26,930 nt of DNA from a virus, in the IMG/VR virus record IMGVR_UViG_3300031963_000793, positions 1 through 26,930 of that record. One strand, 5' to 3'. This document shows, one piece after another, positions 1,105 through 26,753 of the stretch. Within the stretch, counting starts at the first letter, position 1, and every line of letters begins with the position of its first letter. The notes under the pieces are model-generated. The model ran no database searches. It worked only from the letters and a program-made list of their open reading frames with translations, and was not told the origin of the DNA. Position numbers and translations under genes: made by a program.

Positions 1105-2697
1105 TCAATACCCCATAACAGGGTCTGCAATACTCATTCCAGACTGAGAAGTTAATGGATTATAATCAAATAATCCGCTACGAGGGCGACTCATAAGCCC
1201 ATAACGCAAGGCATCATAGGTGTGATCATTGCTAACTTTGGTGTTGATATCCTCTGGATTCACCTTACTTAAGGGCAATGTAGGAAGATCACCAATGATT
1301 TGAACACAGGTATTAAAGAACGTAATGCGTGGTTGCTCAGTGAAACTGTCCACTTGCAAGCGTCTATGCACCTCATTCTTACCAGCAACACGGCTACCAG
1401 AGCTACGATCAGCGGGTCGCCAGCGGCATCCCTTCATAATCATGCGCTCTGCTATGGATGGGCCAGTGTCACCACGCTTATGCCAGCAACTACTGTCCAA
1501 TACACCATAACGAATCTTCTCATTGGTCTCAAGAGCCAAAATCTTCATAGCCAAATCTTCTGCCAACACCTTACTGACGTACAACTCACGATAAACCACT
1601 ATAGAATCATCAGGAGCTACAGCAAACCACAGCACAGCGCTGTGACTTCCGTAGCCATAGTCGCAACTTCTGAATCTAGGCCAGTTGTGCGGTATGTCGT
1701 AGGGTTCAACAACGTGAATTGCCCTATTAAACTCAGAAAAAGCAGCACCTTCAGCAATATCCCAATTACCATCAAGCAATTGCTTGCGCTGATGCTCTGG
1801 AAGTGACAGCAGCATAGCCTCATAGTCACCAGACTCAGCCAAATATGGGTTGTCTGACAGTTTTGCTGGTATAAACTTACGTTTAAATAGCGGCTCACCC
1901 TCTCTGCTGTGCCCTTTAGGGTATCTCATCACCTCGCCTGTCTCAATATCAGTGGCAAGGAACGATTTATTCGGTGGAGAAGGAAGAATAAACATCTTCC
2001 TAACCCATTGGTGGCCGGGACCACCCGGATTCGTAGTGGCTCTCATGTACAAAGGCAGATCAGCAGCAGCTGTACGCAAGCGTGAACGCATATAGTTGTA
2101 CGCAAACGGGGTTGCCCACTGTGTAAGCTCATCAAAAGCTATATACGAGAAGCTCAAACCCTGATATCGCATAACGTCTTCATCTCTATCGAGGTAAGAC
2201 ATCCATAGTCTAGCACCCGAAGGCGCTTGCCACTGCATCTTTCGCTCACTCCACTTAATGCCGGGGTATATCTTCGGATACATCTCCTGACTTTTCCAAA
2301 TCAGTTCACGAAGTTCCTCAGTAGTGTGGCGTAGAATGAGTCCAGAAAACTGTGGATGACCCATGTAACGCAATGGGTCTGCTAAAATTGCATAACTCTT
2401 ACCACCACCAGCACTACCACCATACAATACTTCACGCTCTGGCGCTGCTAGAAAAGAAGTCTGTGGGCCAGCATTAGGCTTGAAGATGATGTTCTGTAAT
2501 TCAACTACCGGCGCTGCTGGAATTGTTGCTGCTGTCGCTGAAGGTGTTTTTAATGGCTCCGTAACGATCTGTGGTAAAGAAGCTGTCTTGGCCGGTGCCG
2601 GTTCTTTTTTCGTACTCTTCCGCTTTCTTAAGGGCTTCTTCGTACCTGTCGGCAAGCTTTCGATAAGTAGACGATTTTCGTTTGTGGGACTGCTCAT
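1105..2697 (-). CDS. terL: Terminase large subunit (ATPase-nuclease packaging motor)
   Basis: 530 residues. It should cleave concatemeric DNA and drive ATP-dependent packaging at the portal. Walker A is GGSAGGGKS at residues 93-101 and Walker B is SYIAFDE ending at E190. Motif III/coupling is RATTNPGG near 219-226. The C-terminal RNase H-like nuclease is marked by RSCDYGYGS, by YGVLDSS, and by NDHTYDALRYG near the end. The first ~67 residues are a Lys/Pro/Ala-rich extension lacking family motifs. This extension coincides with a 197-nt overlap with the upstream gene in another frame. No later in-frame ATG precedes the Walker A motif, so 2697 is the only ATG start that keeps the ATPase domain intact. 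Confidence 0.95.
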   Translation of the reverse strand: MSSPTNENRLLIESLPTGTKKPLRKRKSTKKEPAPAKTASLPQIVTEPLKTPSATAATIPAAPVVELQNIIFKPNAGPQTSFLAAPEREVLYGGSAGGGKSYAILADPLRYMGHPQFSGLILRHTTEELRELIWKSQEMYPKIYPGIKWSERKMQWQAPSGARLWMSYLDRDEDVMRYQGLSFSYIAFDELTQWATPFAYNYMRSRLRTAAADLPLYMRATTNPGGPGHQWVRKMFILPSPPNKSFLATDIETGEVMRYPKGHSREGEPLFKRKFIPAKLSDNPYLAESGDYEAMLLSLPEHQRKQLLDGNWDIAEGAAFSEFNRAIHVVEPYDIPHNWPRFRSCDYGYGSHSAVLWFAVAPDDSIVVYRELYVSKVLAEDLAMKILALETNEKIRYGVLDSSCWHKRGDTGPSIAERMIMKGCRWRPADRSSGSRVAGKNEVHRRLQVDSFTEQPRITFFNTCVQIIGDLPTLPLSKVNPEDINTKVSNDHTYDALRYGLMSRPRSGLFDYNPLTSQSGMSIADPVMGY

Positions 2698-2971
2698 TTT
2701 TTAATCGTTTAGATAAACCTACATGGCTGATTTCTCGACCAGTTACTTTCGTTAGCCATATAGCCACCTTTCGCACAGCGTATTGTTTAACATACACCTT
2801 TGCTTTTTCAAGAGCTTCAAGTTCTAGCGGTATAGGAATGAGCCAGCTGTCATCGTTCTCATCTTTTCTATAACCAAAAGGAACTGTCCTAGCCAATCGT
2901 GGAATAGGAACATATTCTTTTTTATCTTCTGGCTGTGGCAGTATCCATTTACCTAGCTCAAGTTCTTGCAT
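2501..2971 (-). CDS. HTH-like protein between the small-terminase candidate and terL
   Basis: 156 residues, basic, with a likely helix-turn-helix around AVRKVAIWLTKVTGREISHV, followed by a long charged helix rich in K/E/R and a Ser/Asn-rich tail. I recognise the N-terminal pattern (YVPIPRLARTVPFGY) as recurring upstream of terL in tailed phages, but its function is not established. A DNA-recognition role in packaging is an inference from the HTH and the position. Its start overlaps the stop of the preceding gene by one base (TGATG). Its last ~65 codons overlap the start of terL in a different frame, and the conserved part is upstream of that overlap. Confidence 0.75.
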   Translation of the reverse strand: MQELELGKWILPQPEDKKEYVPIPRLARTVPFGYRKDENDDSWLIPIPLELEALEKAKVYVKQYAVRKVAIWLTKVTGREISHVGLSKRLKNEQSHKRKSSTYRKLADRYEEALKKAEEYEKRTGTGQDSFFTTDRYGAIKNTFSDSSNNSSSAGS

Positions 2972-3339
2972 CAGTCTTCCTCGCGTTCCTTTGCTGGCAA
3001 GATCATAACACCATTTGTAGCTTCAACTTGAATCTTATCTGTCTTAGCAAGACCAGCACGGTCAAGCAAGTCTTTGGCAGCACTCATCTTCTCTTTGATG
3101 CCAAGCTCTGTTGGGTCAAGAATGCCATCAACCATAGCAAGAGCAGCACGAGGTGCATTCATTGCAATGTAAAGCTGTGTGGCTTCAATGATTTCTTCCT
3201 TGAGATAGTTAGTAATCATGCGGCTGCTATAGCCTTCAGAGAAACCAGCCAATAGTTTAGCTTGGTTAATGCTACCTTTAGCTTCACCAAATAATACATC
3301 AAGGAATTTCTTGTGTTGTTCTGTAAGTTCTTTTGCCAT
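2971..3339 (-). CDS. Terminase small subunit candidate
   Basis: 122 residues. The N-terminus (LTEQHKKFLDVLFGEAKGS followed by NQAKLLAGFSEG) has the helix-turn-helix layout of small-terminase DNA-binding domains. It is followed by a helical middle (APRAALAMVDGILDPTELG) and the segment KEKMSAAKDLLDRAGLAKTD, which is common in TerS-like phage proteins. A TerS recognises the packaging signal on concatemeric DNA and presents it to TerL. It lies two genes upstream of terL, with only the HTH-like protein between. The assignment rests on motif recognition and context, so the subunit role could instead belong to the neighbouring 156-residue protein. Confidence 0.65.
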   Translation of the reverse strand: MAKELTEQHKKFLDVLFGEAKGSINQAKLLAGFSEGYSSRMITNYLKEEIIEATQLYIAMNAPRAALAMVDGILDPTELGIKEKMSAAKDLLDRAGLAKTDKIQVEATNGVMILPAKEREED

Positions 3340-5201: not shown

Positions 5202-5479
5202 TAGTAACGACCCTTGCCTTTCCTATCGCGCCAGCCTTCAGCCTTCATAGCCGCTTCAACTCTGTCTAACGGAAAATAGAAACCTGTATGCTTTTCCAGC
5301 GCTGCTCTAACAAAGTAAACATCTGAATGAGGGATGTGAACAGTGTCAGCTTTGTCTTTATATATAGCTTTGTAGACATGAGTCGCCGCGCTATAGGGTA
5401 ACACATCAAGAAGACCTAAAGCATTTACTTGTTCTTTTGTTGAACAAACATTTAGTTTGATAGCATTAGTGCATTTCAT
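5201..5479 (-). CDS. First gene of the leftward operon, hypothetical, 92 aa
   Basis: 92 residues ending in HTGFYFPLDRVEAAMKAEGW and a basic RDRKGKGRY tail. The body is mixed alpha/beta with two Cys in the first dozen residues. I do not know a function for it. As the promoter-proximal gene of the minus-strand cluster, it lies about 60 bp downstream of the candidate promoter at 5542-5571. Confidence 0.75.
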   Translation of the reverse strand: MKCTNAIKLNVCSTKEQVNALGLLDVLPYSAATHVYKAIYKDKADTVHIPHSDVYFVRAALEKHTGFYFPLDRVEAAMKAEGWRDRKGKGRY

Positions 5480-5541
5480 ACCGTGAAATATTATTGTTAT
5501 TCTATCTATTGTCTACTATATAGACTTTAAAGCTCTTTAGC

Positions 5542-5571
5542 GCTATAGGGATTCATTAATTACTATATCAA
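5542..5571 (-). promoter_or_regulatory. Candidate sigma70-type promoter of the leftward operon
   Basis: On the minus strand TTGATA (5571-5566) and TATAGC (5547-5542) are separated by 18 bp, the same spacing as all four rightward promoters. The -35 box matches 5 of 6 consensus bases and the -10 box 4 of 6. The position fits the start of the leftward operon. It is only moderately supported. Confidence 0.4.
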
Positions 5572-5819
5572 TTGTCTTTTATCTTCTTGCTACAGAAGCT
5601 ACAAGCATCATCAATGTCAATGTCTTCTAAGCCCCCTAATCCCCCATAGGCTATAGTTTTACCGTTTTGAGAAATCTTGTCAAGTGTTATTTTTGCATGG
5701 TGTTGCTTTCATGTTGAATTGTAGCACACTTAGGAAGACAAACAACAATGGCCCTAGTGCAAACTGCATCCGTCTATGTCTGCTACAGCATAGCTTAGCA
5801 TGGATTAAACGACTGTGGT

Positions 5820-5871
5820 GGCGTTTGTTTAGGAGTGGTAAGGGCTGGGTAGCTTAACCACTTTAAACGCC
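5820..5871. repeat. Bipartite inverted repeat / stem-loop
   Basis: GGCGTTT (5820-5826) pairs with AAACGCC (5865-5871), and AGTGGTAAG (5834-5842) pairs, with one bulge, with CTTAACCACT (5853-5862) around a 10-nt loop. It could form a cruciform or an RNA stem. Confidence 0.6.
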
Positions 5872-5979
5872 TGTGTTATTGCTCTCCACAAATCATAGCG
5901 TGTGGGAATAACTGTAGAAAGCTGTGTGGTTAACAGACTCATTTTCCTGATTTTTGAGTGTGGCTGTATACATATAGCG

Positions 5980-6038
5980 CCGTACCCCCCACTGGCCCAC
6001 ACCCGCCCCCGTACAGCCGCGCACTGGCGCACACTCGC
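5980..6038. repeat. GC-rich imperfect direct duplication
   Basis: CCGTAC occurs at 5980 and 6009. Each copy is followed by near-identical 17-mers, CACTGGCCCACACCCGC at 5990 and CACTGGCGCACACTCGC at 6022. The block is markedly richer in G+C than its surroundings. Confidence 0.6.
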
Positions 6039-6102
6039 GCAGCCCTGCACATCCAGCGGTAGGTGAGCGCTACAGCCCTGCGTAAATTCACCCGTCATTC
6101 AA

Positions 6103-6137
6103 AAGAGTCTTAAGAATCAATGACTTATAAGACTCTT
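6103..6137. repeat. Perfect 10-bp inverted repeat
   Basis: AAGAGTCTTA (6103-6112) and TAAGACTCTT (6128-6137) surround a 15-nt loop. No T-tract follows, so it is not a typical terminator. It may be a protein-binding site or cruciform. Confidence 0.65.
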
Positions 6138-6284
6138 GGAACTGATTCAAAATCAGCTACGGCATATCCCGTTACTGACTTTCCGGTCATTAAATAACCA
6201 TACCCCTACACTGTGAAGGGTCGGTATATCTATACCCCTATACTATGTATTGTGACTAATCAGTCTACACTGTGACTAGTGAGT

Positions 6285-6405
6285 CAATGCTGCAATGCAA
6301 CAATCTACACCATATCAGCAAAGCCTTATATATCCCAATGCTGCAATGCAACAATCTACACCATATCAGCAAAGCCTTATATATCCCAATGCTGCAATGC
6401 AACAA
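6285..6405. repeat. 51-bp tandem repeat, about 2.4 copies
   Basis: Units beginning CAATGCTGCAATGCAACAA start at 6285, 6336 and 6387. The first two copies are identical over the full 51 bp, and the third ends after 19 bases. Because 51 is a multiple of three, frames stay open across it, which produces misleading reading frames. It is iteron-like in appearance, but with only two full copies the function is open. Confidence 0.9.
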
Positions 6406-6463
6406 ACCACCATCGATGAAAAAGCCTCGCACACCTGCGCCAAGCTTCAGGCATACATACGCA

Positions 6464-6576
6464 GCAGCTTTGCTGCCTACAACAAACAATAAAACGACAA
6501 ATTGACGAAAAGCCTCGCATGACTCGCATGTCACTCGCGCATGTGATGCAAGCGTCATACGCCGCAGCTTTGCTGC
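6464..6576. repeat. Pair of GCAGC-TTT-GCTGC hairpins
   Basis: The identical 13-mer stem-loop occurs at 6464-6476 and 6564-6576. Each follows CATACG plus a C/A-rich stretch and an upstream AAAAGCCTCGCA word, so the ~100-bp segment looks imperfectly duplicated. The complementary version GCAGCAAAGCTGC recurs at 6978-6990 inside a gene. Confidence 0.65.
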
Positions 6577-6592
6577 CTGAGAAACCTTACAC

Positions 6593-6622
6593 TTGACAGG
6601 GCTATTGAAATGTTTGTATAAT
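6593..6622 (+). promoter_or_regulatory. Consensus sigma70-type early promoter P1
   Basis: TTGACA (6593-6598) and TATAAT (6617-6622) are both perfect consensus hexamers with an 18-bp spacer. It lies just upstream of the first rightward gene. The predicted transcript begins near 6629 and has a CAGC-GATTTT-GCTG stem-loop at 6634-6647. Confidence 0.9.
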
Positions 6623-6648
6623 TGAGGCCGAAACAGCGATTTTGCTGC
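6593..6648 (+). repeat. 56-bp promoter-leader repeat, copy 1
   Basis: The promoter plus leader (6593-6648) recurs at 7480-7535. The -35 region (TTGACAGGGCTATTG) and the -10 with leader up to TTTTGCTGC are identical; only about nine spacer bases differ. Confidence 0.9.
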
Positions 6649-7253: not shown

Positions 7254-7508
7254 ATGCAAACCATCATCAATTTCCTCGCTAAAACCATAGGTTTTACTGT
7301 CATTGGCAAGGGCAGCAAGAAACGCCATTACACTTTCACATTCAGCGAAGCTGCTGAGTGGGCAGCATGCTACGGCAGACATGGCGGTGCAAGCATATAC
7401 AAGCATGGCCTATGGGTAGCATCCAGAGGCAAGCATACGAAACCGAAGGTTTATAAAGCTAGTCGGAAAGCCCCTACATTTGACAGGGCTATTGCAAAGT
7501 CGTTATAA
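7254..7508 (+). CDS. Hypothetical basic protein, 84 aa
   Basis: 84 residues, basic (several Lys/Arg/His), no recognised family. The body contains GSKKRHYTFTFSEAAEWAAC and a Lys/His-rich C-terminal half (ASRGKHTKPKVYKASRK). It could bind nucleic acid (inference). Its last codons are overprinted by the second promoter copy (7480-7509). The stop codon TAA is inside the -10 hexamer. Confidence 0.65.
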   Translation: MQTIINFLAKTIGFTVIGKGSKKRHYTFTFSEAAEWAACYGRHGGASIYKHGLWVASRGKHTKPKVYKASRKAPTFDRAIAKSL

Positions 7509-7509
7509 T
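7480..7509 (+). promoter_or_regulatory. Consensus sigma70-type early promoter P2
   Basis: TTGACA (7480-7485) and TATAAT (7504-7509) with an 18-bp spacer, overlapping the 3' end of the preceding gene. It drives the GP88-like gene at 7560 and beyond. Confidence 0.88.
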
Positions 7510-7535
7510 TGAGGCCGAAACAGCGATTTTGCTGC
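7480..7535 (+). repeat. 56-bp promoter-leader repeat, copy 2
   Basis: It matches 6593-6648, including the leader stem-loop CAGC-GATTTT-GCTG at 7521-7534. Confidence 0.9.
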
Positions 7536-14430: not shown

Positions 14431-15261
14431 ATGGATAAAGACAAAGCAATTGGTATGTTCATTGGCACAGCTATCGGTGACGCACTTGGTGCACCATTAG
14501 AATTTACACAGCCAAACACAGGGCATCCGCTCACAGAGATGGTGGGTGGTGGCTTTCACAACACTGATATCGGTGAGTGGACAGATGACACAGCCATGAT
14601 GGTGTGCATTGCCGATGCTTACATCAACTTCAAAACCTTTTCACCAAAGGTGATTGCAAATAACTTCGTTGATTGGAAACGCTACGGCACACATGGTACT
14701 CGTGACTATTGCTTTGACATTGGCCGTGTAACATCTGATGCACTGTCGAGCATTGAGAAGTCCCGTGTCTATGGTGGCAACACCTCCTACAACACCAACG
14801 GTAATGGTTCTATCATGCGAATGGCAGCTAATGTTGTGGTCAATCACAGATGTGTTGCACTGGCTGTCGGTGAGTCTGTTGCTACAGCACTGATTACACA
14901 TGGCACAAAGGACACTGTGCAATATGTGTCGGCACTAGGCGAGGAGTTGTTCTTCGGTAAGGCGTTGCCCTTTTACGACAAGCTGCGTGTCAAGGGTGCT
15001 GACAAGCCTGATGGTTCTGTGATGGGCTGCTATGCTTCAGCATGGGATAGCATTGCTCGTACAACAAACTTTGAGGACGCTGTTGTACATGCTATCAACA
15101 AGGGTGGCGATGCTGACACAGTGGGTGCTGTCACTGGTATGATTGCTGGCCGTATCTATGGATACTCTGGTATCCCTAAGCGTTGGCTCGACAAGCTGGT
15201 CAAGCATGATGAGTTGCTGGCTATGGCAAACGATCTGTACTATCTCTACGAAGGGGACTGA
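14431..15261 (+). CDS. ADP-ribosylglycohydrolase (DraG/ARH family)
   Basis: 276 residues, full length for the family. Hydrolyses ADP-ribose from modified protein (or other) targets with two metal ions. Signatures: FIGTAIGDALGAPLEF (10-25), GEWTDDTAMM with the metal-binding TDD (51-53), GNGSIMRMA (124-132), and HAINKGGDADTVGAVTGM with GGDADT (225-230). All expected acidic metal ligands are present, so it is predicted active. GAGGAA upstream provides the RBS, and the P4 promoter probably supplies transcription. In a phage it may reverse host or phage ADP-ribosylation (inference). Confidence 0.93.
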   Translation: MDKDKAIGMFIGTAIGDALGAPLEFTQPNTGHPLTEMVGGGFHNTDIGEWTDDTAMMVCIADAYINFKTFSPKVIANNFVDWKRYGTHGTRDYCFDIGRVTSDALSSIEKSRVYGGNTSYNTNGNGSIMRMAANVVVNHRCVALAVGESVATALITHGTKDTVQYVSALGEELFFGKALPFYDKLRVKGADKPDGSVMGCYASAWDSIARTTNFEDAVVHAINKGGDADTVGAVTGMIAGRIYGYSGIPKRWLDKLVKHDELLAMANDLYYLYEGD

Positions 15262-15262
15262 C

Positions 15263-15619
15263 ATGACTGTACAAGTGACAAGCGATGGCGCTGCTGTCGT
15301 TGACACAGAGTATTTCTGGATACCTGTAGATGAGCACACACCAAGAGGTGCAAAGCTACAGCTACTAGGGCAGGGTGGCGTAGCCGTCTACGCTAATTAC
15401 GATGGTGATAAATTCTGGACACACTGGTGTCCTTTGCCTAAGAAAAGGGCAACTCGTAAGGCATACCCGTCCGTAGTATTAGATGATCACGGCTATGTGG
15501 GTGCGAATGAGTGGCACAACATAGATAAACCAGTGATTGGTGTTGTGCTTTTGTTAGTTGTAATGGTCGTTAGTCTTCTGATATTGTTAGGCATGCACTT
15601 AAGCAGGATGCTCCCATGA
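15263..15619 (+). CDS. Tail-anchored membrane protein, 118 aa
   Basis: 118 residues from the ATG at 15263, with AAGGGGAC upstream; the frame is open further into the preceding gene but that extension is not credible. The N-terminal soluble part (EYFWIPVDEHTPRGAKLQLL, then FWTHWCPLPKK) recurs in small phage proteins of unknown function, and the C-terminus has one strong transmembrane segment (VIGVVLLLVVMVVSLLILLG). Its stop overlaps the integrase start (ATGA). Confidence 0.7.
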   Translation: MTVQVTSDGAAVVDTEYFWIPVDEHTPRGAKLQLLGQGGVAVYANYDGDKFWTHWCPLPKKRATRKAYPSVVLDDHGYVGANEWHNIDKPVIGVVLLLVVMVVSLLILLGMHLSRMLP

Positions 15620-16713
15620 AATTGCCACGCTATCTGTTATCGTTCATCCGCTATGACACTACACACTACCGCTACAACCCTCCAGTAGATGCGATTGATG
15701 CTGGTATAGTTGAGCGTAAGGCATGTGGCACAGACTACGAAGCTGCTGTGGAATATGCTGAGAAGCATAACGCAATCATGGATGCGTGGCGTAAGGAACA
15801 CCGCTACCTAAAGAACTTGTCTGAGAGGTCTAGGGTTGAAGACCTGTTCAAGTCCTACATAAATAGCATTGGTTACAAAGCCCTGTCGCAGAAGAGCAAG
15901 ACTGATTATGTCTACTACTTGAAGCAATGGTTTCATGACACCACAGTGGCACAGGAACTATACAGGACAAGGCTGTGTGACATTGCCACACCAATGTGTC
16001 AGCGCATCTATGACAAGCATGCAGAGAACAGCATCAGCCTTGCCAATCACACACTGGCTGTCTATCGTTTGTTGTTTAGCTTTGCTATTCGCAATGGCTT
16101 TACAAAGCACAACCCTTTCACTGAGGTGAGTAGACGGCAAGACAAACCAAGGCGTGTGGTGTGGGAAAAGAAACACATCAAGCAATTCATGGACAAGGCA
16201 TTCACCAAATATGAGTGGCGTAACATTGGACTGCTGGTGTACATGGCCTACTCATGGGGTCAACGCTTGGGCGACATGCGACTGCTCACATGGGACAACT
16301 ACAATGCTGACACTGGCGTGATGAAGCTGGAGCAGAGCAAGCGTAGGGCAAGGGTGGAGATACCAACTAGCGCTGCCTTGCGTGAGATGCTGGCACAGCA
16401 GAAGGCTGACATTGGCTGGCAAAAGTACATTGTCCCGTCACCTATTGGTGATGGCAGTGGTGGCTTTAAACCCTACAGTCTATTGCAATTGGCTAAGGTT
16501 GGTGGCACAATCATGCGAGAGTCTGGCATACCAGATCACCTTAAGATGATGGACATGAGGCGAACAGCAGTGACTGAGATGATTGAAGCTGGTGTACCGC
16601 TGACCAATGTCATGTCTGTCACAGGACATGCAACAACACACAGCCTTACACCTTACATCAAGAACACATTAAAGAGTGCATCTGTTGCACAGGATATGAG
16701 GGATATGATATGA
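15616..16713 (+). CDS. int: Tyrosine recombinase / integrase
   Basis: 365 residues. Residues ~75-170 form a SAM-like core-binding domain and 180-365 the catalytic domain. Visible active-site residues: Arg in GQRLGDMR (R217), Lys in EQSKRRARVEIP (K242), Arg in MDMRRTAVTEM (R315), His in SVTGHATTHS (H338), and the nucleophile Tyr in TPYIKNT (Y347). The usual His of the H-x-x-R box is replaced by Met (M312), so R315 follows M-D-M. Integration or resolution of phage DNA is the family role; no att site or repressor is visible here. ATGA overlaps join it to both neighbours. Confidence 0.9.
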   Translation: MKLPRYLLSFIRYDTTHYRYNPPVDAIDAGIVERKACGTDYEAAVEYAEKHNAIMDAWRKEHRYLKNLSERSRVEDLFKSYINSIGYKALSQKSKTDYVYYLKQWFHDTTVAQELYRTRLCDIATPMCQRIYDKHAENSISLANHTLAVYRLLFSFAIRNGFTKHNPFTEVSRRQDKPRRVVWEKKHIKQFMDKAFTKYEWRNIGLLVYMAYSWGQRLGDMRLLTWDNYNADTGVMKLEQSKRRARVEIPTSAALREMLAQQKADIGWQKYIVPSPIGDGSGGFKPYSLLQLAKVGGTIMRESGIPDHLKMMDMRRTAVTEMIEAGVPLTNVMSVTGHATTHSLTPYIKNTLKSASVAQDMRDMI

Positions 16714-24742: not shown

Positions 24743-25062
24743 AACCAAATGATGTGGCGATGATACTGCGTCCAATCATTGTAGAAGGCGAAGAATGGGA
24801 TGGAGGTTTTGAAGTATTGATTGCTGGTATTGGACCTATAACAATGCCAGAAGATAGCATCCGTGAGTTGATCAGCATGGCAATGTTGGTAGCCACTACT
24901 ATCCCTATGATGGAGAGTGATTCAGAGCTTACAGAAAAGATCATGATTGAGTGCGCTAAGGTGTACGGTGATGCTGATGATGTTGATATTCAAACTATGA
25001 TAGCTACAGAGGAAGGTTTGTCACTCACTGTTAATAGCAAAACAGTTGGAGGTATGCAATGA
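24718..25062 (+). CDS. Hypothetical acidic protein, 114 aa
   Basis: 114 residues from 24718, where AAAGGA lies at good spacing; 24739 (ATGA overlap) is an alternative start that removes seven residues. Acidic; contains ILRPIIVEGEEWDGGFEVLI and ELISMAMLVATTIPMMESD. No function assigned. Overlaps the exonuclease by 25 nt and the next gene by 4 nt. Confidence 0.65.
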   Translation: MEPTREDMKPNDVAMILRPIIVEGEEWDGGFEVLIAGIGPITMPEDSIRELISMAMLVATTIPMMESDSELTEKIMIECAKVYGDADDVDIQTMIATEEGLSLTVNSKTVGGMQ

Positions 25063-26677: not shown

Positions 26678-26753
26678 CGCGGGTTACGTCAGTGGTCAGA
26701 CTATTAGGCTCATAACCTAAAGGACGGAGGTTCGAATCCTTCACCCGCAACCA
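26678..26753 (+). tRNA. Initiator-type tRNA-Met (CAU), C1xA72
   Basis: 76 nt with CCA encoded. The acceptor stem is CGCGGGT / ACCCGCA: the first pair is C1xA72, the mismatch specific to bacterial initiator tRNA-fMet. The anticodon loop is CTCATAA and the stem TTAGG/CCTAA. The D-stem has G11-C24 (purine-pyrimidine as in initiators), and the T-arm GGAGG TTCGAAT CCTTC is normal apart from one G-U. Only two of the three anticodon-stem G-C pairs typical of fMet are kept (A29-U41). Its 5' end follows the stop codon of the preceding gene without a gap. Confidence 0.92.

Follow-up and report, generated by a model that had tools for sequence, protein, structure and literature searches.

The window analysed here is the whole of a 26,930-bp IMG/VR record, classed as linear. 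Its genes mark these 26.9 kb as a genome fragment from an HMO-2011-type podovirus, a member of a dominant and broadly distributed marine viral group (PMC9038755). Its large terminase subunit (TerL; 1105–2697, minus strand; PHROG 979, PF03237) shares 79% identity with its MW202701 counterpart and 70% with the one from Puniceispirillum phage HMO-2011, its small subunit (TerS) is 57% identical to that of HMO-2011, and its gene order, with divergent structural and replication modules, is that of HMO-2011, which places it in the group. Terminase and portal genes are read leftward, while an integrase (15616–16713), a primase/helicase, a DNA polymerase matching PHROG 1252 and an exonuclease are read rightward. 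A further hallmark of HMO-2011-type phages in general is a DNA polymerase whose central domain is DnaJ-like. The terS gene (2971–3339, minus strand) was assigned through PHROG 2538 (E=7e-6). Its profile matched the solved small terminases 7joq and 6w7t (E about 1e-7), and weakly the small-terminase DNA-binding domains 2cmp and 4zc3 (E about 0.5); the predicted TerS structure was of low confidence (pLDDT 55), too poor for a fold search.

The two modules diverge from a gene-poor region: leftward genes start at 5479, rightward genes at ~6642, and no supported gene lies in between. A preliminary description of this DNA had noted this layout and read the region as a repeat-packed candidate origin or control locus. 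Most of its repeat inventory was confirmed. Direct repeats are above chance. The region has 80 repeated 9-mers, where shuffled sequences averaged 3.5 (maximum 11), and still has 29 once one copy of a 51-mer is removed. The 51-bp units form an exact tandem repeat (6285–6335 and 6336–6386, followed by part of a third unit up to 6410), and the paired GCAGC-TTT-GCTGC hairpins are present in CATACGC(A/C)GCAGCTTTGCTGCCT units at 6456–6478 and 6556–6578. Short direct repeats, ATACCCCTA, CTACACTGTGA and TGTGACTA, occupy 6194–6277 (the ATACCCCTA pair lies at 6194–6247), outside the blocks conserved throughout the group, and the GC-rich duplicated block is visible as a partial duplication, CACTGGCCCACACCCGC (5990–6006) and CACTGGCGCACACTCGC (6022–6038). 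The clustered inverted repeats also claimed there did not hold up: no enrichment was found (3 against 4.7 expected, k=9), and among three imperfect inverted pairs in the region, two are nearly 1 kb apart.

Putative sigma70-type promoters flank the region on both sides. The best leftward promoter in its flank, TTGACA-N16-TAAAAC, lies at 5656–5683 on the minus strand, and many relatives have TTGACA-N16-TATAAC/TAAAAC in a comparable place. The rightward early genes are preceded by a perfect promoter sequence (TTGACA-N18-TATAAT, 12/12) at 6593–6622, plus strand. It belongs to a 64-bp cassette (6585–6648) that is duplicated with 89% identity at 7472–7535, the second copy carrying its own perfect TTGACA-N18-TATAAT at 7480–7509. 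The left and right promoters have ACTTGACA in common; with 3 matches in the window against 2 expected, this sharing alone is weak evidence.

Comparison with related phages put the emphasis elsewhere than on the repeats. Only near-identical contigs have the 51-mer in 2.5 copies (6285–6410); L007, L123, L169 and L170 each carry it once. The GCAGC hairpins were found only in close relatives, so neither repeat is the functional core of the group. The part conserved group-wide, identified by BLAST against relatives and by a profile, is a non-coding element of ~90 bp at 5922–6014 together with a right arm at 6102–6160. We conclude that this element, missed by the preliminary description, is the important feature of the region. 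A profile of 5922–6014 hit one place per locus in more than 100 loci, which were dereplicated to 66 sequences. Information content is highest at 5922–6011 and 6102–6160.

Within the element, alignments and the profile delimit a left-arm block, TGTGGTTAACAG (5925–5936, plus strand), followed by CCTGATTTTTG (5946–5956, plus strand; CTTCTGTGGGC in other relatives). The core, GGCTGTATACATATAGCGCCGTACCCCCCACTGGCCCACACCCGCCCCCG (5962–6011, plus strand), is present in a single copy and carries ~1 bit or more per position among the 66 non-redundant sequences; the second-best match to the position weight matrix (PWM) of the element is the GC-rich partial duplication described above. In the right arm, a site matching the IHF consensus, AATCAATGACTTA (WATCAANNNNTTR), lies at 6115–6127 on the plus strand. 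Of 60 non-redundant loci, 22 have a perfect consensus (0.5 expected) and 41 a relaxed one (0.9 expected), placed 82–111 bp, about 101 bp, to the right of the element end. An inverted repeat, CTGAT-N5-ATCAG (6142–6156, plus strand), follows at a distance of about 128 bp from that end and is present in 26 of the 60 loci, against 0.04 expected. A set of 40 sequences had given a weak minus-strand RNA fold, which was lost when all 66 were used; the lack of a consensus fold across the 66 sequences fits a DNA site. A quadruplex-type pattern of G tracts on the minus strand of the core (5984–6011) was seen in only 44 of the 66 relatives.

The element is recognisable in more than 60 non-redundant contigs and in most of the isolates examined, as a single copy per genome and in a fixed orientation relative to the terminase. 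Profile-positive isolates include HMO-2011, CRP-1, -2, -9, -13, -207, -235, -345 and -603, and weakly CRP-3. The match in CRP-738 was below significance (E=0.24). For HTVC104P, the best core match within its 4.4-kb stretch lies upstream of terS and is weak, and for HTVC103P and HTVC033P a similar core sequence was noticed by eye only, HTVC103P having no profile-detectable element. Wherever an isolate locus contained the terS region as well as the element, a TerS orthologue was present: TerS and the element occur together in the window, MW202701, HMO-2011, CRP-1, -3, -9, -212 and -235, phiM6 and RHph_N3_19. In CRP-738 and the pelagiphages, TerS accompanies elements that are weak or were recognised by eye, and both are absent from SIO1. 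No convincing similar sequence was found on plasmids or unrelated phages, a single MAG contig fragment was the only hit to prophages in bacterial genomes, and nothing similar was seen upstream of terS in Aeromonas phage MQM1 (TerL 41%).

An element with an IHF consensus, in a phage with a tyrosine integrase (15616–16713), could be a lambda-like attP, with IHF and arm sites, and an integrase was indeed found in 23 of the first 23 element-bearing genomes tested. Against this, CRP-9 and CRP-13 keep the element and have no integrase. Moreover, the CRP-3 attL-R and attR-F primers (PMC6918029) map to 2829 and 3642, downstream of int; attP of CRP-3 therefore lies between these positions, about 7 kb from its element. 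Contradicted on both counts, the attP reading strikes us as extremely improbable.

A different function is suggested by the Sinorhizobium phage phiM6. Its genome was predicted by PhageTerm to be terminally redundant and packaged by a headful mechanism, and the initiating pac cleavage was set at position 1 (PMC6256558). When a PWM of the element, built without phiM6, was run over the 68,176-bp phiM6 record, the best match, with a score of 9.9, was on the minus strand at 48–76, and the next one scored 8.7. A two-block scan of the same genome gave 24 at position 91, minus strand, against 20 at most in 20 shuffled genomes. The best match is thus 48–91 bp from the published pac cut, and the chance of a best match falling less than 100 bp from the cut is ~0.3%. 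Its orientation relative to the terminase is the same as in the rest of the group. Positions 72–91 carry GTATACAACTATAAGTACCC, a pattern that was written after phiM6 had been seen. As in the window, phiM6 thus has a two-block core, the same orientation and orthologous TerS and TerL; it differs by the distance to terS (about 0.5 kb, against about 2.6 kb in the window) and by its right side, where no IHF-consensus arm was seen by eye. The phiM6 paper gives no description of the element (PMC6256558). This single PhageTerm prediction, in a phage whose TerS is 36% identical, makes up the physical evidence for a pac site.

Some record and contig ends also lie at the element. The deposited records of three Rhizobium phages with this terminase begin inside the element, upstream of terS, at a point that may have been chosen by their authors: the circular record of RHph_N3_19 opens in mid-element (L319 1–40, continued from the end of L318), and two sister phages start identically. 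Among the metagenomic contigs, four have ends that lie no more than 3 bp apart, at the right edge of the core. DNA molecules cut at a pac site and running leftward from it would produce such ends, and we take them as supporting only. Two right-hand contigs, L178 and L204, start inside the element block and overlap the left-hand contig ends; the assembly may equally well have broken at a block that strains have in common, which makes the ends ambiguous evidence for a fixed physical end. A cos site would nevertheless predict such precise ends, and the GC-rich core and an IHF site, as at lambda cosB, would suit it. However, most contigs that are nearly complete continue across the element and end elsewhere, the HMO-2011 and MW202701 records are circular, and phiM6 was called a headful, pac-type phage (PMC6256558). 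A cos site is in our opinion very unlikely.

Lying between putative divergent sigma70 promoters, the element is upstream of both, and could be an operator or enhancer controlling them, that is, a site for a late-gene activator or a repressor. Its position is not always so. In CRP-3, CRP-235 and CRP-212, the element lies several kb away from the strand switch, in a 750–860-bp gap of the leftward gene cluster (L158:1579–1655, L166:8043–8124 and L249:10419, respectively). The CRP-3 and CRP-235 cases argue against control of the divergent promoters, as do the matching sequences upstream of terS in HTVC104P and RHph_N3_19. A rigidly conserved stretch of ~90 bp with a fixed IHF arm would also exceed the usual needs of an operator, and the coincidence with the phiM6 pac cut would be left unexplained. 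We therefore regard transcription control as quite unlikely.

As for the origin, either the element or the adjacent iteron-like repeats would load the phage replisome, through IHF and a DnaA-box-like TGTGGTTAA. The position at the strand switch, the IHF consensus and the direct repeats agree with such a role, and the perfect rightward promoter could prime replication. The iteron-like repeats, put forward in the preliminary description as a sign of an origin, are lineage-specific (the 51-mer and the hairpins alike). The cumulative GC skew, proposed there as a check, has its minimum near 7500, outside the region, and the skew switch follows gene strand rather than the element. In CRP-3 the two are separated: the element is at 48.6 kb, whereas the skew minimum coincides with the strand switch near 52 kb, about 4 kb away. 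HTVC103P shows the strand-switch skew pattern as well, though it has no profile-detectable element. Furthermore, the element is retained in CRP-9 and CRP-13 together with a Cobavirus-like replication module, i.e. one of another type (PMC8528129), and its homologue in phiM6 lies at a pac cut. An origin at the element or its neighbouring repeats is thus unlikely; one elsewhere in the same 1.1 kb, outside the conserved element, is possible. From the earlier proposal, the control locus stands, as the element is a genuine cis-acting control locus, and the origin is not supported by the evidence.

In the reading that we favour, the phage is an HMO-2011-type podovirus that packages by the headful mechanism, and its pac site lies in the strand-switch region. 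We consider this reading probable, as a candidate reached through homology, the window phage being inferred to do what phiM6 does. TerS, the proposed trans-acting partner of the element, would bind it, and host IHF would bend the DNA between the core and the right arm. The terminase would then cleave the concatemer produced by replication, at the C-rich core or immediately to its right, in a zone at about 6004–6060 that runs from the core's right edge, marked by the contig ends, to the equivalent of the phiM6 cut at ~6058. Packaging would proceed leftward, with the terminase and structural side entering first. Some observations speak against a pac site: the distance between the element and terS, about 2.6 kb in the window and about 8 kb in HMO-2011, exceeds that of classic pac phages, and the element matches in the pelagiphages and CRP-738 are weak. 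Taken together, the locus is likely a so far undescribed pac element, likely assisted by IHF and uncoupled from terS at the strand switch. A further proposal, that an IHF-assisted pac fixed at the early/late strand switch would allow one nucleoprotein complex to coordinate the start of packaging with divergent transcription or replication, is rather doubtful.

Known packaging sites offer partial parallels. In SPP1/SF6 pac and in lambda cosB, a region bound by the small terminase lies beside the cut, and lambda uses IHF at cosB. The proposed site would resemble these in having a TerS-bound region beside the cut, and it differs from lambda in that lambda makes fixed cohesive ends whereas the window phage would use a headful pac. 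P1 is similar in combining a packaging-initiation site with an IHF site, and its pac cleavage requires IHF and HU according to the statement in PMC10028697 that cites Skorupski 1994. Unlike the window site, P1 pac lies inside pacA and has methylated hexamers, and no sequence relation between the two was seen.

None of the papers found describes the packaging site of HMO-2011-type phages. With a pac element that can be recognised, their genomes would gain a natural point from which to start numbering. The element may also explain some of the metagenomic contig breaks at that point, and packaging in this group becomes testable with existing reads.

A few other features of the window and its relatives were recorded. 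An ADP-ribosylglycohydrolase-like gene is found among the early genes (14431–15261; PHROG 6572, E=5e-48), and the protein encoded at 25059–25562 matches both dATP/dGTP pyrophosphohydrolase and T7-type 'endolysin; inhibits RNA polymerase' PHROGs. A related large terminase is encoded on a Flavobacteriales MAG contig (L160), possibly a co-binned phage contig. Finally, an intact tRNA-Met(CAT) gene lies at 26678–26753, close to the record end; as CRP-3 integrates into the tRNA-Met(CAT) of its host, this gene is possibly related to attachment.
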